A stretch of 32,052 nt of DNA from a virus, in IMG/VR virus record IMGVR_UViG_3300012920_007377, positions 1 to 32,052 of that record. One strand, written 5' to 3'. The notes below the pieces were generated by a model that saw only the letters and a program-made list of their open reading frames with translations, did no database searches and was not told the DNA's origin. A program made the translations under genes and the position numbers. Position 1 is the first letter of the stretch; each line of letters opens with the position of its first letter. This document shows, piece after piece, positions 7,505 to 31,284 of the stretch.

Positions 7505-7512
7505 TATTTATA
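7505..7512 (-). promoter_or_regulatory. Late-promoter-like motif TATAAATA inside the tRNA cluster
   Basis: Minus strand TATAAATA, exact match to the T4 late consensus, between the Trp-type and Thr tRNAs. It could add late transcription of tRNA-Thr and tRNA-Leu and of the membrane-protein gene beyond. Confidence 0.45.
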
Positions 7513-7993: not shown

Positions 7994-8030
7994 AATTTGT
8001 TTTCTAGTAAAAATAATCTTTTCAGTATTT

Positions 8031-8429
8031 TTAGAAGCTAAATGACACACCTACTGTGATTTCATTGCGATCTTCTGCGTTGAAATCGTATGATGTCTCT
8101 GCATATGCTTTTGCACTGTCGCTTATTTGATAATCCATTCCCATTTCTAATAATGGTAACTGGCCGTCGTCTAACATATTCATAATAGCAAGATCATCAC
8201 CACTTGCGTGGTCTGTTTCATAAACAGTGATTGGTGATTCTGCCCATAAACTTAATGGACCAGCAACGTCCCAACGTACTTCTGGTTCTACTGTAATATG
8301 GTTAGTTCCTGCTTCCACTTTGTGAAATGCTTTTGCTTCTGTGTTTAGTGATACACCATTCCCAAGCTCTGCCGCTGAAACTGATGTTGCTGCAAATAGT
8401 GCAACAATTGCTAATAATGTTGAACGCAT
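8031..8429 (-). CDS. Small outer-membrane beta-barrel-like protein
   Basis: 132 aa with a signal peptide MRSTLLAIVALFAATSVSAA cut before ELGNG, then alternating beta strands (VEPEVRWDV, LSLWAESPITVY, LLEMGMDYQI, AKAYAETSYDF) and the terminal strand ITVGVSFSF. A final Phe on an amphipathic strand is the recognition signal of outer-membrane proteins. About 112 mature residues would form a very small barrel or barrel fragment. AAAGGAAA site. A phage copy could modify the host surface, for example to block superinfection, but this is inference. Confidence 0.7.
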   Translation of the reverse strand: MRSTLLAIVALFAATSVSAAELGNGVSLNTEAKAFHKVEAGTNHITVEPEVRWDVAGPLSLWAESPITVYETDHASGDDLAIMNMLDDGQLPLLEMGMDYQISDSAKAYAETSYDFNAEDRNEITVGVSFSF

Positions 8430-8465
8430 GTTCTTTTCCTTTAGTTCGTCTTATCGTTAGTCAAT

Positions 8466-8498
8466 AAAAAATGCAGTGCGAAGTATGCCGCATTGCAT
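8466..8498 (-). terminator. Intrinsic terminator of the tmRNA transcript
   Basis: On the minus strand a 10-bp stem (ATGCAATGCG with CGCACTGCAT, one G-T pair), 8-nt loop, then TTTTTT. It lies at the 3' end of the tmRNA precursor. Confidence 0.8.
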
Positions 8499-8608
8499 CA
8501 TATATACTTAGTTACAGATACCACGAGTTTCAAGGCCTGTTAATAAATTAGTTGAATGTGTGTTGAAAATGCCACACTTCTGTTGCTAGGCAGTGGCCGC
8601 CCCCTTAA

Positions 8609-8653
8609 TTATGCCGCTAGGGCGTAATCAGAAGGTGCAAAATTATCGTTTGC
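8609..8653 (-). other. tmRNA proteolysis-tag reading frame
   Basis: Resume codon GCA at 8653; encodes 14 residues ANDNFAPSDYALAA followed by TAA. With the alanine delivered by the charged tmRNA, stalled proteins would receive a 15-residue tag. ANDNFA is common to alphaproteobacterial tags; the middle PSDYA is a distinctive segment to compare with host tags. Confidence 0.92.
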
Positions 8654-8744
8654 AATTATAGTTTTTGACCAATAACGCAGTCATCCGGTTAACTCCACGC
8701 CTCTACTTACTACCTGTCGATCCTGGTTCGGCCCCATAAAAAAG

Positions 8745-8876
8745 CTATAAACCGTTTTTTAATATACGTAAAGCAACGGCTTTATTTTCTGTGTGTATAA
8801 GAATCCAACCTTTTTCGTCTTCTACGATATAGTATCTGACTCTTTTACTGTTTTCTTTTTCAATTAATCGTCTCAT
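8745..8876 (-). CDS. 43-aa open frame filling the tmRNA intervening segment
   Basis: MRRLIEKENSKRVRYYIVED then EKGWILIHTENKAVALRIL and KNGL. It starts seven bases after the encoded CCA of the acceptor piece and stops nine bases before the first base of the coding piece, so it occupies nearly all of the 148-base spacer that must be removed from the precursor. Codon choice and residue pattern look protein-like, but there is no clear ribosome-binding site. A longer frame beginning at 8948 would translate the acceptor piece itself and is not credible. Could be a real peptide or a chance frame. Confidence 0.4.
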   Translation of the reverse strand: MRRLIEKENSKRVRYYIVEDEKGWILIHTENKAVALRILKNGL

Positions 8877-8953
8877 AGCTTTTTGGTGGAGCCGTCGGGT
8901 ACCGCCCCCGAGTCCAGTATAGTGTTGAATTTGCTTCAACGTTAACAATACTA

Positions 8954-8982
8954 TTTATATAGTATTTTAACTATTTTGTCAA
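8954..8982 (-). promoter_or_regulatory. Strong promoter for tmRNA with overlapping late motif
   Basis: Minus strand TTGACA (8977-8982), 17-bp spacer, TATAAA (8954-8959). The same bases contain TATAAATA (8952-8959), an exact T4 late consensus, so the tmRNA could be expressed both early and late. Confidence 0.75.
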
Positions 8983-8983
8983 G

Positions 8984-9202
8984 TTACCACTTAACACTTA
9001 ACTTTTGCTTAAATGCTCTTTGACTTCTAATTGCGTTCATACATGAAAGTAATCGTCTGGATCTTTCCATTGGTTTGCCATAACCATTTTTAGTCTTGCT
9101 TAATTGATGTTGTTCGTTTTCTTTTGCAAATTCTTTACTAAGAATAGTTTCTATTAACATTAAATCTGAATCACTGAGATTCTGCAATTGTTGTGCCACC
9201 AT
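8984..9202 (-). CDS. Small basic protein, unknown
   Basis: 72 aa from MVAQQLQNLSDSDLMLIETI. The start at 9202 has an AGGAGA site and overlaps the upstream gene by 32 bases. N-terminal half acidic helix, C-terminal half strongly basic (GKPMERSRRLLSCMNAIRSQ and KQKLSVKW), suggesting RNA or DNA contact. No family recognised. Confidence 0.6.
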   Translation of the reverse strand: MVAQQLQNLSDSDLMLIETILSKEFAKENEQHQLSKTKNGYGKPMERSRRLLSCMNAIRSQRAFKQKLSVKW

Positions 9203-9404
9203 TATGAAATCTCCTGTTGTAAGCCTCTTCAAATCCTTCTTCATAAAGATAAAGGGGAGCACCGTTGCTCCCATCAATCCATAATCTTTTGAAATAGCTG
9301 TCTTTCGATGCAAGGACCGTTTGCTCTGATGTATTGAGATGGCCTTTTACCATCCAAAAATATCTGTGGGCTTCCTTGTGATGTTCTCTTTCCGCTTCTG
9401 TCAT
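9171..9404 (-). CDS. Small conserved phage protein, unknown
   Basis: 77 aa beginning MTEAEREHHKEAHRYFWMVK, with an AAAGGAG site. Charged N-terminal helix, then a strand-rich middle (SNGAPLYLYEEGFEEAYNRR). A GTAAATA late-like motif lies about 30 bases upstream (9434-9440). Confidence 0.65.
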   Translation of the reverse strand: MTEAEREHHKEAHRYFWMVKGHLNTSEQTVLASKDSYFKRLWIDGSNGAPLYLYEEGFEEAYNRRFHNGGTTIAESQ

Positions 9405-9454
9405 TTGCGTACTCCTTTCATCAGTTGACGTAGTATTTACACAGGCTAATAATG

Positions 9455-9598
9455 TTAGCGCAAATTAAGTACATTTTTATACATAATGCGCAACTGTTTT
9501 TCTACATTACTCCAATATTGTTTTCCCCATTCACTAGTGCAAGTATTGTATGCTTTTTTACAGTTCATAATTAATTTGGTTGCTCTTTGTTTTGTCAT
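9455..9598 (-). CDS. 47-aa basic protein, unknown
   Basis: Starts MTKQRATKLIMNCKKAYNTC. The 9598 start is chosen for its CAGGAGG site and the ATGA overlap with the 37-aa membrane peptide. Two Cys and many Lys/Arg and aromatic residues. No family recognised. Confidence 0.55.
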   Translation of the reverse strand: MTKQRATKLIMNCKKAYNTCTSEWGKQYWSNVEKQLRIMYKNVLNLR

Positions 9599-14799: not shown

Positions 14800-16854
14800 T
14801 CATTTGCTTGATGCGATAAAGACTCCGTTCCAGTCTTTGGGGAGGTCTTGCGTTTGCATGTAAGCACAACGTTCCATCCACATATCGTAATATCCATCAA
14901 TTTGTCCATCAAACTTTCCTTTGTTTAATGCACACAATTCGCTAGCACGTTTAAAGTCTTGTGCCTTGTAATGTGTGTGCATTAAATCATGTATTTCTCT
15001 GCTTTGTTCATATTGTGCTTTGTATTTTCCAGGATTGTCTAATACTGTGTATATACTAAGTCCAACACTTTTACCTTTTACTTGTAAGTCATCAACTTTA
15101 AGGAAAAAGAAATCATCTTTTGTATGTTTATATGTGGCTTCGCCTACTAGTAACACACATCCATATTCTTTACACTTGCTTTCGATACGGGCGGCTGAGC
15201 TGACGCTGTCCCCCAGTACATCATAACTGTGCCTTGCTGTTGACCCCATTTCTCCAATGTACCCAAGTCCGGAATTAATACCTGCGCCCATTCCAACTGG
15301 AGGCCTACCTTCGCTAGTAATCTTTTCATTAAATTTCTCCACTGCTTTTAGCATGTCGAGTCCACATTGCACCGCTGTTCGTGGGTGCTGTGGATCATCT
15401 ATAGGAGCATTGTGTATGTGCATACTTGCATCTCCTATATACTTAATTATCATTCCGTTGCTGTCTAAAACGGGCTGAGTAATAGCGTCCATGTATCCGT
15501 TCATAACTTTCGTCAATCCCTTTACATCATCTCCAAAACTTTCGCCCAGTGGTGTAAACCCACGCAAGTCACTAAAAACTATGCTTACTTCTTTTTTAAC
15601 CCCTTCTTTGATAAGTGCTGGATTTTCCTGTAGCATTTTAACTACAGTAGGACTTGCATAACCTGCAAACTGCTTTTTAATTGCTTGTTTCTGTAAAAAT
15701 TCATCTAAAAACTTTACAATGTAACGCAATAGTCCTACAACTACAATAAATGCAGCTGGTATAAATCCATCTACTAATATATTTTGTGTTTCAAACATAT
15801 AGTAACTTGTGTAAACAATACCGCCTGTACTGCCTACAAAAAATATTAATCCTATATAAGTCCAACGTGCTAATAATATTACCAGCAATCCTATTATTAC
15901 AATAGCGGCTAATTCTGCCCATGCTTCTGCATCTGGATGTCTGCTAATATTACTTTCATTAAATACTGTACCCAACAAAACTGCTTGCATTTCGTGTCCA
16001 TAAACACTACCTGCGGCTGTTGCAATTGGTTGTGTTGTTCCTGCCGCTGTTGGGCCTACAAATACAATACCTCCTTCAAAGTCGTCAGGTAAACTTAATG
16101 CACTAAGACTAGTACTACGCTGACTCCAGTCTATCCAAACACGCCCTAAATTATCTGTTTGTAAAAATCCATATTGTGGAATACGTAACTTGTCTACTCC
16201 TAGTGGATTTAATTTTATTTGGAAACTTGGATCTCCAGCAAGCACTCGCAACACTTCCATTGTAACATTAGGATACAAAGTATCTCCGCTGTTTAGCACA
16301 AGTGGTGCTCTACGTGTAACACCATCTAATTCAGGAAACGTGTTTATAATACCTGCGCCTACTGCTTTGTTTTCAAGTATAGGCACATTTGCAATAATAC
16401 CTGGCATACTTGGAATAAGGTCTCTGTACTGTGGATTAATAACTGCCGCACCAGGATTAATGGGCTCATTTTTACCTTGTGAACTACCTAGCATACTTAA
16501 AACAACAGGATAGTCTTGCATTAATTGTGCAAGTTCTAGATCCTGTCCACTGCGATCTGTTTCGCTCATTAATACATTAAACACAACAAGTCCTGCATTG
16601 CGTTCGTATAATTGTTTGATTAAATCAGCATAATCGCCACGTGGAAACGGCCACTGTCCATATTGATTTATTGTGGGTTCATCTATGTTAACAGTATAAA
16701 TGTTGTTTAACATAGGCTCTTGGTTCAATATTAGTGTATCAAAATATCTTAATCTTAGACTTTCTACAAAATTAAAGTTAGAATAGAATGTCCAACTAAG
16801 TAATACCAATGCAACTACACTGTATATTGGACTTAGTAAAAGTTTCTTTACCAT
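14800..16854 (-). CDS. CHASE2 sensor fused to class III adenylate-cyclase-like domain
   Basis: 684 aa. N-terminal span (10-26), extracytoplasmic CHASE2 domain (about 35-300: TVNIDEPTINQYGQWPFPR, GGIVFVGPTAAG, VYGHEMQAVLL), three spans (about 312-385), then a class III nucleotide cyclase (about 420-610). Metal aspartates D429 (VFSDLRGFT) and D475 (KYIGDASM), adenine-selecting K471 and D545, and R556 are present, but the transition-state Asn of the usual VNxAxR motif is Ser (VSSAAR, S552). Activity may therefore be reduced or altered. Last gene of the curli-like operon; FecR proteins and CHASE2 cyclases occur together in bacteria, so it may sense the surface module and signal through cAMP. AAAGGAA site. 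Confidence 0.88.
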   Translation of the reverse strand: MVKKLLLSPIYSVVALVLLSWTFYSNFNFVESLRLRYFDTLILNQEPMLNNIYTVNIDEPTINQYGQWPFPRGDYADLIKQLYERNAGLVVFNVLMSETDRSGQDLELAQLMQDYPVVLSMLGSSQGKNEPINPGAAVINPQYRDLIPSMPGIIANVPILENKAVGAGIINTFPELDGVTRRAPLVLNSGDTLYPNVTMEVLRVLAGDPSFQIKLNPLGVDKLRIPQYGFLQTDNLGRVWIDWSQRSTSLSALSLPDDFEGGIVFVGPTAAGTTQPIATAAGSVYGHEMQAVLLGTVFNESNISRHPDAEAWAELAAIVIIGLLVILLARWTYIGLIFFVGSTGGIVYTSYYMFETQNILVDGFIPAAFIVVVGLLRYIVKFLDEFLQKQAIKKQFAGYASPTVVKMLQENPALIKEGVKKEVSIVFSDLRGFTPLGESFGDDVKGLTKVMNGYMDAITQPVLDSNGMIIKYIGDASMHIHNAPIDDPQHPRTAVQCGLDMLKAVEKFNEKITSEGRPPVGMGAGINSGLGYIGEMGSTARHSYDVLGDSVSSAARIESKCKEYGCVLLVGEATYKHTKDDFFFLKVDDLQVKGKSVGLSIYTVLDNPGKYKAQYEQSREIHDLMHTHYKAQDFKRASELCALNKGKFDGQIDGYYDMWMERCAYMQTQDLPKDWNGVFIASSK

Positions 16855-16891
16855 TAATGTATTCCTTTCGGCAACGGTTTACATTAAGTAT

Positions 16892-17212
16892 TTACCATTT
16901 AAATTCGTACCCAAAAACAACTCCTACGTTATCTTCTCCCTCTATTGCAGGTGCAATAAAGAAGTCATCATAAGTTGCTCTCAAGTAAGGCAACACTGGT
17001 GCTGTTGTATAGCCTGTTACTGCGCCTGCTTCCAGACCAATTTCTCCAAACTCCCAGCGTTTGCCTCCGTAAAAACTTACTGCATTTTCACTATTATAGT
17101 ATGCACCTGCTATTGCGCTGTTCTCGGTATAACGCACGTGCGGGTGTATAGCATTATAGTCGTTGTTAAAACCCAAATGTAAACTTAGTGCTAGTCCTAG
17201 TTCAATCATCAT
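16892..17212 (-). CDS. Outer-membrane-barrel-like small protein
   Basis: 106 aa, MMIELGLALSLHLGFNNDYN. Short hydrophobic start without a clear cleavage site, then alternating strands (IHPHVRYTENSAIAGAYYNS, VSFYGGKRWEFGEIGLEAGA, FIAPAIEGEDNVGVVFGYEF) and final KW. Aromatic-ended last strand suggests an outer-membrane beta fold. Overlaps the 48-aa gene by 11 bases. Related-looking proteins occur in cyanophages, from memory. Role in the curli-like operon unknown. Confidence 0.62.
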   Translation of the reverse strand: MMIELGLALSLHLGFNNDYNAIHPHVRYTENSAIAGAYYNSENAVSFYGGKRWEFGEIGLEAGAVTGYTTAPVLPYLRATYDDFFIAPAIEGEDNVGVVFGYEFKW

Positions 17213-17348
17213 AATTTACTGGATTAAACATTTTGTCCCATCTAGGTCCAACTGCTTGCCAGTATTCCTTACTACTATCACTGTATACATTTACACCGTA
17301 TGCTACAAAAAATACAAGAATTAAACATATAACACTACCCTTTAGCAT
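17202..17348 (-). CDS. 48-aa single-span membrane protein
   Basis: Starts MLKGSVICLILVFFVAYGVN, one span (5-20), then SDSSKEYWQAVGPRWDKMFN and PVNYDD. Overlaps the upstream secreted-protein gene by 14 bases and the downstream gene by 11. The conserved-looking tail with WxxVGPRW and NPV suggests it is real. No family recognised. Confidence 0.55.
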   Translation of the reverse strand: MLKGSVICLILVFFVAYGVNVYSDSSKEYWQAVGPRWDKMFNPVNYDD

Positions 17349-17751
17349 CTCTATTATCCCAAGGTGCATTTTCGTAACATCCTGCAGGTAGAGTATCTTT
17401 ATAACTTACTCCTGCTTCGAACCCGCCGGGTGTTTGTTTAATGTATGCACTGTCAAACGGCATTACCCGTGGCTTACCCCAACAGCGATTCATACTCTGT
17501 CCAGGCACTCTGTAACGTGCATTATGTTTTAAGAAGTCTCGTAACTCTTTTAAGTTTTGGGCATTTACTGCCACTCTAAAATCGCTAGCACAAGCCGCGG
17601 CTTTTCTAAAGTCAAAACTATCGAAATTATCGACGCTATAGCCATACTTGGCCAAGCAAAGTTTTGATGCCTCGTTGTTGCTTAACGATTCTGCTGATGC
17701 TGAGGCCACTCCTAACCCTAGCATTAGCACTGTCGCTAATATTGTTTTCAT
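17335..17751 (-). CDS. Secreted Cys-containing protein in curli-like operon
   Basis: 138 aa with signal peptide MKTILATVLMLGLGVASASA cut before ESLSN. Mature part has four Cys (KLCLAKYGYS, AAACASDFRV, SMNRCWGKPR, PAGCYENAPW) likely to pair in the periplasm or outside. It does not resemble CsgE or CsgC. Position between the second curlin-like gene and the CHASE2 end of the operon suggests a role in the same surface module. Function unknown. Confidence 0.65.
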   Translation of the reverse strand: MKTILATVLMLGLGVASASAESLSNNEASKLCLAKYGYSVDNFDSFDFRKAAACASDFRVAVNAQNLKELRDFLKHNARYRVPGQSMNRCWGKPRVMPFDSAYIKQTPGGFEAGVSYKDTLPAGCYENAPWDNRDAKG

Positions 17752-17776
17752 TTTTTTCCACTCTCACTCTTTCTGT

Positions 17777-18559
17777 TCAGTTTTGTACTACGGATACTGA
17801 ACATCCGCCAAATGTTTGACAATTTTGTGTCAAACTATAACTCATAGCACTGCTAGTGCTACTTTGTGTTAAACTTAAATCTGTTCCATAATTACCATCT
17901 AATGTAATTGTTGCTGTATGCCCATATGATTTCTTTTGATGTACAAACACATTGTTATCGTCATTGTTAATAGTCAAATCTAGTGTTTTGTCCTGGTTTG
18001 CTTCTTGCATTACATGTACATTGTTGTCATTACCAGTTATATCTACATCCATATTATGATCGCTTATGCTGTTTTGTGAACGTTGGGATAGTTTTATACT
18101 ATTGTCATTACCATTAACAGACAATTCCATATTATGTCCTCCGTGTTCAACGTTATCATACAACCAATCGTTTGCTGTAATCTTATATCCTTGTCCTAGT
18201 TCCATACTATTGCCTGTTCCTGTTACATCTAAGTCCATTGCGTCTGCATTGCAAAGGCTACCATTATGACATTTTTGTTTTGCAAGCATTGTATTATTGT
18301 TGCCGTCTATAGATAATTCTATTGATGCACCATCTGTTTCTTGGTTAAGTGTAACATCAATATTATCGCCATCTAAACTAACAGGTGCTGTACTCGTGCC
18401 TATAGTGTTATCTTCTCCATCTTGTGTAATAGATAAATTTAGATCGTCCCCTACTTGGTTAATGTAAATATCATTGGAATAAGTTATCGTTGGAACAGCC
18501 ATCATCACACTGAGTAATACTAATCTGATTATTAGTGCTGACCCCCAATTTGTATCCAT
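17777..18559 (-). CDS. Curlin-repeat protein 2 (CsgA/B-like)
   Basis: 260 aa from MDTNWGSALIIRL; the start is uncertain because the frame is open further upstream inside the FecR gene (18586), and MMAVPTITYS at 18505 is also possible. Signal peptide to about TITYS, then mature start NDIYINQVGDDLNLSITQDG. At least seven degenerate repeats with the pattern xLxVxGNDNxxxxxQ (for example LSVNGNDNSIKLSQ and VDITGNDNNVHVMQ), close to the curlin strand-loop-strand Q-x-G-x-N-x5-Q. Mature N-terminus is nearly the same as that of curlin protein 1, so the two are paralogues. Probable amyloid fibre or surface-strand subunit exported by CsgG. Confidence 0.75.
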   Translation of the reverse strand: MDTNWGSALIIRLVLLSVMMAVPTITYSNDIYINQVGDDLNLSITQDGEDNTIGTSTAPVSLDGDNIDVTLNQETDGASIELSIDGNNNTMLAKQKCHNGSLCNADAMDLDVTGTGNSMELGQGYKITANDWLYDNVEHGGHNMELSVNGNDNSIKLSQRSQNSISDHNMDVDITGNDNNVHVMQEANQDKTLDLTINNDDNNVFVHQKKSYGHTATITLDGNYGTDLSLTQSSTSSAMSYSLTQNCQTFGGCSVSVVQN

Positions 18560-19625
18560 AGATTTTAAATTCACTTTGTTGTACATTTAATTCATATCCA
18601 TATTCATCATTCATACGTACTCTTACGTAATTGTTTCCTACTCTATCTTCTCTTTCAAATATCCAGGTTTGTCCATCTTTTTGTAAGTTAATACCAGTTT
18701 CTGCATCAAAGCCTATTGTTGCTCTGTTATTTTGCATAAGAATTGCATTTTGTCTTAAAAGTTCGTCCTCAAATAATCTGCGTAATGCTTCATTTAATTG
18801 ATCTAATATATCGTATAATAGATCTCCTAGTCGCCAGTCCATTTCATCTAGTGCAGTAACCCATAAACTTGCATCATCTAACCAACTGTCACTATCTAAT
18901 AAGTCCACATCTAGCCAATCCAAGCCCAAAAAGTCTGCACGTTTTGCATGCCTATATATAATTTCTTCTGCTTCATCATAAGGATTACGTTTGCGTAATA
19001 TAATCAGATGATTTAGTAATTTTTCGTCTACGTCAATAAGTAGTGGAGGAGAAGGTGGCTGCCAGCGAGTGGTTGTCTGAGTGGATTGAAAGGCTTGATT
19101 CATTACCACTGCCCCAACATCGGTCATCACTTCGATCTCACCTACGTAACACATACCATTTGTGTCACAGCTGGGCAACAGAGTAATCATACTACCACCC
19201 ATCTCATCCACTACCATGACAAAATCCGTACCCCTTACACCGATCGTTGCACTGGGAGTTTGGATTTTGACGTTCTGGCGGCTACGCTTTGCTATTTGTC
19301 CACTAGCATACCTTATACCGCCCAACGTTGCTTTAATTGATAAATTTCCTTTTCCGCTGTTGGGATCATAAACAAATTCATCAATTGTTAGTCTTGCATG
19401 TTCAGTTAAATCTACTCTAGTATCGTCCATAAAATCTAATCGCATGGTGCCTTTGGCTGTAACGGCTGTGTCTTGCATTTCAATACCAACACCATCGCTT
19501 CCAGGAATAGTATCCTTTCCACGTTCGATAGCACCGCTACCTGTCATTTTGCCAATATTACCCGCTGTATTGGCGAACACGGGCGGCACCCATAACAATA
19601 AGATTGTGACGATAACCCAGCGCAT
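18471..19625 (-). CDS. FecR-domain exported protein
   Basis: 384 aa with signal peptide MRWVIVTILLLWVPPVFA. FecR domain at about 40-170: GSDGVGIEMQDTAVTAKGTM, RVDLTEHARLTIDEF and TPSATIGVRGTDFVMVVDEM, the last being the family signature. Two Cys lie in the region after it (PSCDTNGMCYVGE). The C-terminal 190 residues are acidic and then strand-rich, unrecognised. FecR domains normally relay envelope signals; here it sits between two curlin-like genes, one-base TAATG overlap with the first and about 90 bases overlap with the second. Confidence 0.85.
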   Translation of the reverse strand: MRWVIVTILLLWVPPVFANTAGNIGKMTGSGAIERGKDTIPGSDGVGIEMQDTAVTAKGTMRLDFMDDTRVDLTEHARLTIDEFVYDPNSGKGNLSIKATLGGIRYASGQIAKRSRQNVKIQTPSATIGVRGTDFVMVVDEMGGSMITLLPSCDTNGMCYVGEIEVMTDVGAVVMNQAFQSTQTTTRWQPPSPPLLIDVDEKLLNHLIILRKRNPYDEAEEIIYRHAKRADFLGLDWLDVDLLDSDSWLDDASLWVTALDEMDWRLGDLLYDILDQLNEALRRLFEDELLRQNAILMQNNRATIGFDAETGINLQKDGQTWIFEREDRVGNNYVRVRMNDEYGYELNVQQSEFKIYGYKLGVSTNNQISITQCDDGCSNDNLFQ

Positions 19626-20335
19626 TAGTCGCTCTGGGTTATATCTACGTCTTGACTATCTCCGTCAAACGTTGCATTTACTGTTGCATCGTTAACACCA
19701 CTTTGATCTATATCATATGTGCTACCGCCGCCAGTAATGTCAAGTATTACAGTATGTCCAGCACTGTCTCCATTACCATCCATGTCAATGTTTAATGTAT
19801 TACCTTCATCACTATTTGCACTTGTTGTAGCTAAACTATTTGCATTGTTCATTACAACTGTAAGTACTGCACTTGTACCGTCAATATCAGAGTTAATAAT
19901 ATTGTTATCACCTGTTACAGTAAAACTAACTGTTGCACTATCTGCATCCTCATTTTCTCCAATATCAAAGTCAAATGTGTTGTCATTACCAGTTGTTGTT
20001 ATGTTTAATGTTACAGTATCACAATCTCCTGTAGAAGTAGAACTACACTGTAAATCTACTGTGTTAGTGTTACCTGTAAATTGCCAAGTACCAGTGTAAT
20101 CTGTGCCTTTAATTGTTGCCACTATTTCGTTAAAATTACCTGTTTGTGTAATTGCAAAAGTCATATCATCACCAGCCAAAGTCATATCTGCCTGTGATGT
20201 TCCTACTTTGTTATCTTGCCCGTCTTGCGTAATATCTAAATCTAAAGTATCGCCAATTTGATCTATATAAATCTCGTTTGCCAGTACACTTGATCCAGAC
20301 ATTAGCATGAGCATTATTGTTAATATTCTAAGCAT
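19625..20335 (-). CDS. Curlin-repeat protein 1 (CsgA/B-like)
   Basis: 236 aa with signal peptide MLRILTIMLMLMSGSSVLA. Mature part starts NEIYIDQIGDTLDLDITQDG, then repeats such as FAITQTGNFNEIVATI, LNITTTGNDNTFDFDI, SFTVTGDNNIINSDI and ending DVDITQSD. The Q-x-G-x-N and I-x-Q spacing is that of curlin repeats, though degenerate and Asp-rich. Follows csgG after nine bases. Confidence 0.75.
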   Translation of the reverse strand: MLRILTIMLMLMSGSSVLANEIYIDQIGDTLDLDITQDGQDNKVGTSQADMTLAGDDMTFAITQTGNFNEIVATIKGTDYTGTWQFTGNTNTVDLQCSSTSTGDCDTVTLNITTTGNDNTFDFDIGENEDADSATVSFTVTGDNNIINSDIDGTSAVLTVVMNNANSLATTSANSDEGNTLNIDMDGNGDSAGHTVILDITGGGSTYDIDQSGVNDATVNATFDGDSQDVDITQSD

Positions 20336-20344
20336 TTTAGCTCT

Positions 20345-21151
20345 CTACTTTCTGAACTTCCAAAGTCCTTTTCTTTCACCTTCGTATACTAGTTCAACAA
20401 TTCCTGCTTCAATTGCAGCTCGCACTGCATAATTGACTGGTTCATTAACTGAATATCCAGCTTCTGTCTCTACTAGTTTTGTTCCCATGTCGAGGAACTT
20501 AAAAACATCTGCACCGCTTCTATGACTGGCTATTGTCTTTTGCGTGGCAATGCTCATTAATACTCTACCTGTACTGACGCTTACTAGCCTCATACTAACA
20601 GTTACAGTATCTACTCGATACTCAGTCTGAGTACCAATTCCTAAATAACGTGCGCCTGCACCTCCTACTACGTTGTTGCTATCGTATCCTACTATTCCAC
20701 CTTCTAGAATAATACCTGCAAACAACATAGGCTTTAACGGTGTAGGCCCTCTTTTAATTTCTTTTTCATAAACTTCTCGTGTATTACGAATCAATTGACG
20801 TTCTTTAATCAAATGATCCATTCCAATGCGTTCTACAACTTCGAACCAGCCTTCGTTACCTACTGTTTGTAGGCCCTGAATAACCCATACTTCTGCACCT
20901 TGCGTAACTGCACTTGATAGGTTTGCTATTCTGTCGTTGGGTTTTCGTTGTCCAGTTTTGTCAGTAAATCCATATACAGCAATTGTAATCTTTTTGCCTT
21001 CTATAGGAGGAACTGCACTCAACATGTGTTTAACAGGACTATCCTGCCTAGTAGGCGGTTCGCCTATAGGAACACTACGATCTTTGAAATAACTTATGTT
21101 ACTACATCCTGACAGTAGTATAACTGTCAACAACGCAAATAATGTACGCAT
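20345..21151 (-). CDS. csgG: Curli secretion channel lipoprotein CsgG
   Basis: 268 aa (E. coli CsgG is 277). Lipobox LLSGC with acylated Cys16. Conserved CsgG blocks: VYGFTDKTGQRKP, GWFEVVERIGMDHLIKERQL, AGIILEGGIVGYDSNNVVGG, GARYLGIGTQTEYRVDTVTV, LVSVSTGRVLMS, SIATQKTI and a C-terminal GLWKFRK. The known role is a nonameric outer-membrane pore that exports curlin subunits. TAATG overlap with csgF. Confidence 0.94.
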   Translation of the reverse strand: MRTLFALLTVILLSGCSNISYFKDRSVPIGEPPTRQDSPVKHMLSAVPPIEGKKITIAVYGFTDKTGQRKPNDRIANLSSAVTQGAEVWVIQGLQTVGNEGWFEVVERIGMDHLIKERQLIRNTREVYEKEIKRGPTPLKPMLFAGIILEGGIVGYDSNNVVGGAGARYLGIGTQTEYRVDTVTVSMRLVSVSTGRVLMSIATQKTIASHRSGADVFKFLDMGTKLVETEAGYSVNEPVNYAVRAAIEAGIVELVYEGERKGLWKFRK

Positions 21152-21615
21152 TAAAAATTAAACTCCCCAGCACCTGGGATAGTGATAGTGGTTGTAGTTC
21201 CTTCGTCGTCTATAATTTCAAGGGTAATGCTTCCTGTGGTTTCGTCTTTGATCCATGTAATAGTAGAACCTTCAATTTCTGCTGTTCCTGTTGTTGCACA
21301 ATTTGTACTACAATCAGCAAACATTGCATCCACCATCTGTTTAGATAGTGTAGCATAAATTCTAGACTCAACGTTTTTAAGGAATTTGTTTAAAGTAGTA
21401 TTTTCCAGCTCACGCTCAATACGTGCTAGCTCAGACTTTCGCGCATCTGCTAACTCTTTTTTGCGATTAAACTGTAACTGTTCTACACTAAGCACGTGTG
21501 TACTATATCCATTACCGTAATGGAATGCTGGACTTTTAAACTGCCAACTCATCTCACTATGTGCTGATGTAACCACTAGGCAGAAACCTAGCGTCAATAA
21601 TACTAATTTTTTCAC
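21151..21615 (-). CDS. csgF: Curli assembly factor CsgF
   Basis: 154 aa beginning at a GTG codon with GGAGAG upstream. Signal peptide MKKLVLLTLGFCLVVTSAHS, then SWQFKSPAFHYGNGYSTHVL, the counterpart of the CsgF N-terminus that plugs into the CsgG pore. A helical middle (LQFNRKKELADARKSELARI) and a beta C-terminus (EGSTITWIKDETTGSITLEI) follow. First gene of the operon, with CTAAATA 18-24 bases upstream. CsgE is not found in the window. Confidence 0.9.
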   Translation of the reverse strand: MKKLVLLTLGFCLVVTSAHSEMSWQFKSPAFHYGNGYSTHVLSVEQLQFNRKKELADARKSELARIERELENTTLNKFLKNVESRIYATLSKQMVDAMFADCSTNCATTGTAEIEGSTITWIKDETTGSITLEIIDDEGTTTTITIPGAGEFNF

Positions 21616-29366: not shown

Positions 29367-30485
29367 CTAAGTTGTTCTTAAGGTTGTTGATTCGTAAGTA
29401 CGATTAAATTGATTTGCAACTTGTACAAAGGTTGTACACTTACTCAAGTGCTTGAGTTTAATTGCGCCTGCATATGTACAAGTGCTACGTACACCGCCTA
29501 GTATGTCTTGTAGTGTTTTGCCTACTGCACCTCTATAAGGTACAAGCACTTCTCTACCTTCACTACTGCGGTATTCTTTTAGTCCACCAAAATGTTTTTC
29601 GTTTGCGGCATTACTACTCATGCCATAAAACTGTACAAATTTTTGCTCTTCAAAATAAGGAATAAATGTTCCCTCTGGTGTTTTATATGCTCCGCCTGTG
29701 GCAATATGTTTTGTAACAATAGATCCGCCACCTTCATCGTGTCCAGCAAGCATGCCTCCAAGCATTACAAAATCTGCACCTCCAGCAAAAGCCTTTGCCA
29801 CATCACCAGCGCAAGTACAACCGCCGTCAGCAATAATATGTCCGCCCAATCCATGCGCCGCATCGGCGCACTCAATAACCGCACTAAGTTGGGGATAGCC
29901 CACCCCAGTCTGTATGCGAGTCGTACAAACCGACCCTGGTCCGATTCCGACTTTGACGATGTCTGCTCCATTTAAAATTAACTCCTCAGTCATTTCGCCT
30001 GTAACTACATTACCTGCAATAATTACAACATCAGGATATTGTTCACGAAATTGTTTTACAAAAGCAACAAATCGTTCGCTATAACCGTTTGCTACATCAA
30101 TGCATACATACTTTAGTTTTTCTCCAACTTGTTCGTATACATCTCTAAATTTTGCATGGTCTCTGTCTTGTATACCAATACTCATTGCAACATAGTCTGT
30201 GCGTTCTGGTATATCACTATCAAAGTATGCAACTAAATCTTTTACACTAAGTGTTTTTACTAAACAAGTAAACACTCCGCCAGTTGCTAAAAAGTCTCCC
30301 ATTTCCATTGTGCCAACACCGTCCATGTTGCTAGCCATAATAGGAATACCTTCATAGTCTTGTTTACTGTTACGGAAAGTAAAACGTCTTTCTAATCGCA
30401 CTTCTTTACGACTTCCTAGTGTGCTACGCTTGGGTCTAATCAAGACGTCACTATAGTCCAGCTTCTGGTCCTGTTCTATTCTCAT
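29367..30485 (-). CDS. guaC: GMP reductase (IMPDH/GMPR family)
   Basis: 372 aa; E. coli GuaC is 347. IMPDH/GMPR barrel signatures: [25 protein letters not shown], the catalytic loop [12 protein letters not shown] with Cys187, [43 protein letters not shown] and the FYGMSS motif. No CBS domains. The last three features and the Cys position favour GMP reductase (GMP to IMP with NADPH) over IMP dehydrogenase. A phage enzyme would rebalance purine pools from degraded host RNA. Follows clpS after four bases. Confidence 0.88.
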
Positions 30486-30489
30486 GGGT

Positions 30490-30795
30490 TTACTCTTTTT
30501 CTAGATCAACTGTTAAGTCATGACCCTGATTACGTGAGTCGCTTAACGTTTCAGCACACTTTTGTTCTGCTATCTCATAAGGATAAACGCCAGCGGTGCC
30601 TCTACCGGCTTGGTGTATTGTAAGTGTAATGTCTTTTGCGGCATCAAAATCGTGCCCAAAAATACGCATTAAAACTTCAATTACATAATCCATAGGTGTA
30701 GTGTCATCATTATGTAACACCACCTTCCATTTATCAGGGGGTGCTAAATTAATAACAGTGTTGGTTCTTTTTTCAATTGCTACATCTACAGTCAT
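30490..30795 (-). CDS. clpS: ClpS adaptor protein
   Basis: 101 aa; host ClpS are about 100-110. Core motif [20 protein letters not shown] (27-46), then [20 protein letters not shown] and [11 protein letters not shown]. ClpS binds N-degron substrates through the DD/His pocket and hands them to ClpA; the Asp pair and the downstream His are present. The N-terminal 20 residues, which block ClpA processing, are also present. Weak ribosome-binding site. Followed by guaC after four bases. Confidence 0.93.
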
Positions 30796-30843: not shown

Positions 30844-30850
30844 TATTTAT
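30844..30850 (-). promoter_or_regulatory. Late-promoter-like motif ATAAATA before clpS
   Basis: Minus strand AAAATAAATATACAAAA overlapping the hsp20 stop codon; the GGGCAGGA hairpin then lies in the clpS leader. Confidence 0.4.
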
Positions 30851-31284
30851 TTTACTTGTGTAATGCTAATTGACTTTGGTTTTAGTTCTTCTGGAACTTC
30901 TCTAACCAAATGTACATTTAACATACCAAGTTCAAGTGTAGCAGTTTCTACATGCACATGCTCTGCAAGTTGAAAAGTACGCTTGAAGTTTCGTGTACCA
31001 ACTCCTTTGTGTAGGTAATTGGTATCCTCACTGCCTACAGGCTGTTTGCCTTCGATTTGTAGTTCGTTACCGTCTTGTGTAACATCGAGGTTATCCATAC
31101 TAAAGCCAGCAACTGCAATACTAATCATGTATTCATCGTCGTTAATCTGTACAATGTTGTATGGAGGGTAATTGCCGCTACTTGATGTGTTAGCAAATGT
31201 TCTTTCCATCTCGTTAAACATTCTGTCAAAACCGATAGTCGCACGGTGGAAAGTTGGTAGGTCTAGTGTTGTTAATCTTGTCAT
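30847..31284 (-). CDS. Small heat-shock protein (Hsp20/alpha-crystallin)
   Basis: 145 aa, AAAGGAG site. N-terminal arm MTRLTTLDLPTFHRATIGFD, alpha-crystallin domain about 38-130 (YNIVQINDDEYMISIAVAGF, NFKRTFQLAEHVHVE, LELGMLNVHLVREVPEEL) and C-terminal KPKSISITQVK with the Ile-x-Ile motif that locks oligomers. Hsp20 genes are common in T4-like marine phages and may protect phage proteins during assembly. Confidence 0.93.
   Translation of the reverse strand: MTRLTTLDLPTFHRATIGFDRMFNEMERTFANTSSSGNYPPYNIVQINDDEYMISIAVAGFSMDNLDVTQDGNELQIEGKQPVGSEDTNYLHKGVGTRNFKRTFQLAEHVHVETATLELGMLNVHLVREVPEELKPKSISITQVK

Follow-up and report, generated by a model that had tools for sequence, protein, structure and literature searches.

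A phage-encoded two-piece tmRNA whose spacer appears to double as a site for small nested genes

We report that a 32,052-base virus record (the whole stretch of DNA analysed here, henceforth referred to as the window) carries a functional-looking phage two-piece tmRNA whose spacer, the segment between the two RNA pieces, appears to double as a site for a small nested gene, a reading to which we assign a probability of roughly 70%. The phage-encoded permuted tmRNA is in itself already known, and the window is a further example of it: Melnitz, a phage of marine Methylophilales, was published in 2022 with a permuted tmRNA, and the same source puts the number of two-piece tmRNA structures in phage genomes at 53 and reports a permuted tmRNA in 17 of 47 Melnitz-cluster contigs (PMC9004378). 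With this precedent in a phage of the same kind, the bare claim of a phage tmRNA is not new. No mention of an ORF in a tmRNA spacer was found in the available portions of the open-licence literature, including PMC9004378, PMC11915505, PMC3978253 and PMC3985003, and the initial annotation of the window, which described the tmRNA, overlooked both the ORF in its spacer and the recurrence of such ORFs in other phages.

That the window carries a phage two-piece tmRNA is, in our judgement, close to certain. The tmRNA, its promoter and its terminator all lie on the minus strand, which the initial annotation had left unstated. In cmscan the covariance model RF01849 (alpha_tmRNA) matched positions 8986-8568 over its full length at 119.7 bits (E 2.3e-32, gathering cut-off 50), RF04321 (tmRNA_permuted) matched positions 8946-8609, also over its full length, at 116.1 bits (cut-off 47), and ARAGORN called c8518-8976 a permuted tmRNA with the tag ANDNFAPSDYALAA. 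With a covariance E-value of 2.3e-32 chance is untenable, and the earlier assignment to a phage-borne, circularly permuted two-piece tmRNA of alphaproteobacterial type, for which a covariance-model search had been proposed as the check, is borne out. The window resembles the alphaproteobacterial two-piece tmRNA (RF01849; Caulobacter type) in the order of the pieces, the tRNA-like domain and a tag starting AND-N. The acceptor piece (8884-8946; delimited by RF04321, RF01849 and the fold) comes first and holds the T arm, the 3' acceptor strand and an encoded CCA; it is followed by a spacer of 148 nt (8736-8883), which is expected to be removed on processing and whose ends form an 11-bp stem continuing the acceptor stem. 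The coding piece (8568-8735; ARAGORN and Rfam) comes second and holds the 5' acceptor strand, the resume region, the tag and the downstream helix, its 3' end at 8568 being the end of the RF01849 match rather than a mapped RNA end. The CCA at 8884 and the start of the coding piece at 8735 with GGGGCCG, both given in the initial annotation, are confirmed in the sequence, and the acceptor halves GGGGCCG and CGGCTCC, which were said to pair fully, do so at 7/7 positions, the third being a G-U pair (G3-U70). A G3-U70 pair is the alanine signal in the acceptor stem. The fold of the segment that begins with the acceptor piece and reaches the first bases of the coding piece contains the T arm, the 7-bp acceptor stem and a GTTAAC/GTTAAC closing helix. 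ARAGORN also found the resume consensus, and the tag frame with its stop codon (8609-8653) encodes ANDNFAPSDYALAA, with an LAA-type end as first described.

The tmRNA has its own transcription signals, as had been proposed. A sigma70-like promoter, TTGACA-17-TATAAA (8954-8982), consists of boxes at 8982-8977 and 8959-8954 that lie 17 nt apart and together match 11/12 consensus bases; it was unlisted by the scan tool, which requires a T at the sixth base. At the other end, an intrinsic terminator (8466-8499) is formed by a stem-loop at 8499-8470 (-12.3 kcal/mol) and a T-run. The late motif claimed alongside these signals fared less well: the T4-late-like TATAAATA is indeed present on the minus strand at 8952-8959, overlapped by the second promoter box, but the window contains 2 copies of it against 4.9 expected by chance, and since this count is not above chance the motif alone proves nothing. 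The other copy (7505-7512, minus strand) lies between the genes for tRNA-Trp and tRNA-Thr, so both copies in the window precede RNA genes. The T4-like character of the phage fits with its type II topoisomerase subunits and with the curli, FecR and cyclase genes that it has in common with Melnitz (Kyanoviridae). SmpB (PF01668) was found in 0/7 viral records searched, including those of the window, Melnitz and Mosig; as the window record has no smpB, SmpB would therefore have to be supplied by the host.

The spacer of the window contains an ORF, MRRLIEKENSKRVRYYIVEDEKGWILIHTENKAVALRILKNGL, of 43 codons and a stop codon (8745-8876, minus strand), which starts with an ATG at 8876, 7 nt after the CCA, ends with a TAG at 8745 and takes up 129 of the 148 nt. 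It thus fits the definition used here for a spacer-nested gene in its layout, which is an ORF with its ATG no more than 30 nt from the CCA that covers at least 60% of a spacer of at least 100 nt. An ORF as long appeared in 53/20000 dinucleotide shuffles of the spacer, and its codon score measured against the window's genes was above that of 1969/2000 stop-free shuffles. No homolog was found among the collected tmRNA loci, phage records, PHROGs or Pfam, nor in viral contigs searched with exact 8-residue seeds only, and the ATG is not preceded by a Shine-Dalgarno (SD) motif, which is usual, not universal, in nested ORFs. The similar-looking ORF of another locus (L258) was considered as a relative and rejected, BLASTP having returned no alignment. 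From the shuffles and the codon score we hold, with moderate confidence, that the window's own ORF is probably a real gene.

Permuted tmRNA loci were collected from viral contigs, in a sample that is not exhaustive, using patterns in the T arm/acceptor or resume region chosen without regard to the spacer; the finder required each locus to have a CCA end, a GG start that pairs with the acceptor and a TCGAC-like motif. Among the matches listed, at least 198 permuted tmRNA loci were obtained; their spacers comprised 156 unique sequences and fell into 115 clusters, which were defined by 6-mers in common (0.35 of the shorter set) and not by tree. Two finder matches with spacers of more than 400 nt (L018 and L063) were dropped as false, and the loci L169-L245, found via a spacer protein or acceptor reading, are excluded from the spacer-ORF statistics. 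IMG/VR contigs are partly near-duplicates, an effect that is lessened in cluster counts, not in pair counts. Among the matches listed, when the first 30 nt were searched for an ATG whose ORF takes up 60% or more of the spacer and 1000 shuffles served as the null, such an ORF was found in 16/19 clusters with spacers of 140-400 nt (12 with SD; shuffle mean 0.76, maximum 4), in 0/19 of the same clusters on the reverse strand, and in 11/21 clusters with spacers of 100-140 nt (8 with SD; shuffle mean 2.77, maximum 8). Spacers below 100 nt showed no ORF excess among these matches (11/75 against a shuffle mean of 17.35; 1 with SD). Still among the matches listed, an SD motif was present in 20/27 ORF-bearing clusters and, counted by locus, 47/198 have an ORF in a spacer of at least 100 nt. 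Six of 10 long proteins from ten ORF-bearing loci matched a phage family in PHROGs (E no higher than 1e-5), so some contigs are shown to be of phage origin, while for the others this rests on the IMG/VR listing. On these counts, nested spacer genes are very likely real in related phages.

The alternative that survives best is that the window's tmRNA is an ordinary phage one whose long spacer is non-coding, the ORF being open by chance while the nested genes elsewhere are real. The window's ORF lacks a homolog and an SD motif, as would suit this explanation, and the syntenic relatives of the window have spacers without an ORF: the closest of them, L335, has a 66-nt spacer without one, and 60 loci, with 29 complete tmRNAs and 15 unique spacers, yielded a single open spacer (78 nt). 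We nonetheless consider chance opening unlikely, as equally open frames were rare among the shuffles (53/20000), the codon usage fits the phage's genes (above 1969/2000 shuffles) and spacers this long are nearly always ORF-bearing in other phages (16/19 among the matches listed). As a separate observation, eight loci (L225, L226, L228, L229, L232, L235, L237 and L335) share a conserved spacer of ~65-67 nt with no ORF, in which an A/T-rich stem, AAAATACATTC / GAATGTATTTT, surrounds a shared core; this spacer may itself be a structured RNA element.

Much less probable is that the window's tmRNA acts as a decoy or has lost its activity, for instance as what remains of an integration into host ssrA. 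The literature describes both a tag-less tmRNA-like RNA of phage DS6A that inhibits host tmRNA (PMC11915505) and ssrA as a known integration site (PMC9004378). However, the DS6A-type decoy has no tag frame whereas the window's tmRNA has an intact one, with its stop codon; the window's tmRNA is full-length, with all acceptor pairs and its own promoter and terminator, and lytic isolates as well as many viral contigs have the same layout.

The nested ORFs are under purifying selection in the seven families tested (pN/pS 0.10-0.33). The WISW family (M..DWHWISWFKGTPFQWGEF...GPLLIRVF) occurs at 56 viral loci, with CCACCA no more than 45 nt upstream of the ORF in 51/56 (5/56 are without it) and with 39 loci inside an ARAGORN permuted tmRNA; its pN/pS is 0.205 for 27 unique cores from 55/56 loci, and its variable columns are distributed over codon positions 1/2/3 as 5/11/26. 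For the other families pN/pS was 0.10 (L258/L265), 0.27 (L124/L315), 0.33 (L234/L155), 0.21 (L031/L081), 0.30 (L152/L276) and 0.18-0.31 (the Melnitz family, four pairs). Among the nested proteins, only that of L078 could be assigned through PHROGs or Pfam; it belongs to Pfam DUF6356 (E 5.1e-12, above the cut-off). A strongly hydrophobic segment is present in 6/27 nested ORFs among the matches listed, and the nested ORF of L244 has a CxxC motif. When four of the nested proteins were searched by tblastn against 50,697 phage records, no match was obtained, and AlphaFold returned no usable fold for WISW from an alignment of 15 sequences (pLDDT 51.9). The spacers of L027, L034, L082, L245 and L307 hold nested proteins of 50-96 aa with no confident family; these proteins, which include a basic CxxC protein and membrane proteins, are candidates for host-takeover factors.

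The tmRNA precursors also share a covarying stem that continues the acceptor stem. In 107 cluster representatives with a length of 28 nt or more among the matches listed, the first 10 nt after the CCA pair with the bases ending 4 nt before the GGGG in 89.8% of cells, against 32-62% when the alignment is slid by 1-3, and 3-6 standard pair types occur per position; the 4 nt before the GGGG are TGAT in 85/107 of these representatives. Because it is present with and without an ORF, the extended stem belongs to the precursor and not to the nested gene. Two rhizobial records resemble the phage precursors in having a short spacer with a stem directly after the CCA and a TGAT end. In the window the stem is 11 bp long, includes the ATG and continues the acceptor stem past a short internal loop, leaving the ORF in the loop. 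Among the matches listed, the SD or the ATG lies within the stem in 23/27 ORF-bearing clusters, and in 7/27 the nested stop codon lies past the RNase P site, inside the coding piece. That the open frames and their conservation reflect an RNA-level constraint, such as a structured regulatory RNA or riboswitch, and not proteins is scarcely credible: the precursor stem is conserved and a glutamine riboswitch is reported for Melnitz (PMC9004378), but the stem is there with and without an ORF, substitutions follow codon positions (5/11/26) with pN/pS of 0.10-0.33 in seven families, one nested ORF is a Pfam family, free-standing relatives exist, and no riboswitch was matched at 8000-9500 of the window at E up to 1.

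Several nested genes have relatives outside spacers. The spacer ORF shared by L124 and L315 is related to a Melnitz gene that ends just upstream of the Melnitz tmRNA (E 7e-25), and the spacer ORF of L085 is related (46% identity, E 3e-11) to a small free-standing gene of the window upstream of the tmRNA (9171-9404, minus strand), whose relatives start 497-525 nt upstream of the acceptor end in 17/28 loci with a complete same-strand tmRNA. A WISW gene is found just upstream of the tmRNA in L171 and outside the tmRNA in L205 and L222, where GGGGGTCGAAC is fused in frame to the gene end; this sequence resembles the start of a tmRNA coding piece, and the gene seemingly left a spacer. L150 and L127, which are 99% identical in the coding piece and 95% in the acceptor piece, have spacers of 142 nt with an ORF and of 54 nt with none, respectively. 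Where WISW cores are at least 95% identical, the coding pieces are less than 75% identical in 55/129 pairs, which are pairs and not events and include near-duplicate contigs and L187 (256-nt spacer). The relatives inside and outside spacers, L150 and L127, the WISW pairs and the 66-nt ORF-less spacer of L335 all argue for an exchange of spacer contents, and we conclude from these comparisons that the spacers of phage permuted tmRNAs serve as an exchangeable site for small nested genes.

Melnitz is the only one of seven named phages examined to have a spacer ORF (1/7; the others are Mosig, Phosso, Ruegeria phages V10 and DSS3P8, Mesorhizobium phage Cp1R7A-A1 and Rhodobacter phage RcSimone-Hastad). 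Melnitz (MZ577097) is like the window in being a T4-like marine phage with a permuted alphaproteobacterial-type tmRNA and with csgF/csgG, FecR and cyclase genes, and the csgF, csgG, FecR, curlin-repeat and cyclase genes of the two share 26-65% protein identity; the window genes at 9171-9404 and 8031-8429 had no match in a 30-kb Melnitz stretch. The Melnitz tmRNA has the tag ANDNYVPVDYALAA and its spacer likewise holds an ORF (MFKWL...), preceded by GGAG and without annotation in the GenBank record, although this ORF is of a family other than that of the window's. Pelagibacter phage Mosig (MT647606) also resembles the window in having a permuted phage tmRNA with a stem after the CCA, but it differs in its spacer of 44 nt, its tag GEDNFALAA and its lack of a nested gene. 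In Sinorhizobium phage Phosso (L330) a permuted tmRNA-like gene, unannotated in the phage's record, has a spacer of about 410 nt. In contrast to the 148 nt of the window, the spacers of four bacterial plasmid records, which provide a weak control, measure 30, 34, 22 and 22 nt and could not accommodate an ORF of this kind; a scan of bacterial genome contigs for permuted tmRNAs matched four contigs, none of them alphaproteobacterial by title.

For the Caulobacter-type two-piece tmRNA, processing, pairing, alanine charging, SmpB rescue and tagging are established (PMC3985003), and the window's tmRNA should behave likewise. In the window, a single minus-strand transcription unit runs from the promoter at 8982-8954 through the acceptor piece, the spacer and the coding piece to the terminator near 8470. 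From known tmRNA biology, RNase P would cut before the GGGG and 3' processing would expose the CCA; the two tmRNA pieces would remain paired, host alanyl-tRNA synthetase and host SmpB would bring the tmRNA to stalled ribosomes, and the tag ANDNFAPSDYALAA would direct the products to ClpXP-type proteases. The spacer would tolerate foreign sequence because it is cut out of the RNA, and small protein genes would be exchanged in it through recombination in the conserved tmRNA flanks. Since the folded extended stem covers the start signals (in the window, the ATG), ribosomes would translate the nested gene on a transcript that is still nascent or unprocessed. Translation and tmRNA maturation might even be mutually exclusive, a tentative proposal on which we would not rely but which, if true, would be a new form of gene regulation. 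Rather unlikely, in our view, is the further proposal that the spacer is a dedicated exchangeable socket in which small-protein expression is wired to ribosome rescue: each transcript would yield either protein or tmRNA, because one and the same stem would present the precursor for processing and conceal the start signals; with a stop codon located beyond the RNase P site, processing would create a non-stop message whose product the mature tmRNA would tag, in a self-limiting loop.

Homing endonuclease genes can be nested in phage group I introns. The spacer genes are like these intron-nested genes in that a protein gene lies within a cut-out RNA segment while the host gene still works. Unlike an intron, however, the spacer is a gap that a permuted two-piece RNA has by nature, and unlike the intron endonucleases the nested spacer proteins are small and of many families, none of which was recognised as an endonuclease. 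If the nested genes are real, a set of small phage proteins escapes any annotation in which the entire stretch counts as an RNA gene. The genes in the gap are varied, with products that include membrane proteins, a CxxC protein and a DUF6356 member, and some are possibly host-takeover or counter-defence factors. A gap that offers a safe, recombination-prone site for small genes would also suggest why a permuted tmRNA suits phages. As cultured Melnitz carries a spacer ORF, nested genes can be tested now.

The window further encodes ClpS, the Clp protease adaptor (30490-30795, minus strand; PF02617, E 7e-29), next to Hsp20 (30847-31284); this ClpS had no match in the complete Melnitz genome. In E. 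coli, ClpS diverts ClpAP from ssrA-tagged substrates, and a phage with both a tmRNA and ClpS may act on tagging as well as on the fate of the tagged proteins. Elsewhere on the minus strand the window encodes an IMP dehydrogenase/GMP reductase family protein (29367-30485; PF00478, E 1e-67) and, at 14800-21615, CHASE2-cyclase, FecR-like and curlin-repeat proteins, CsgG and CsgF, as in Melnitz.
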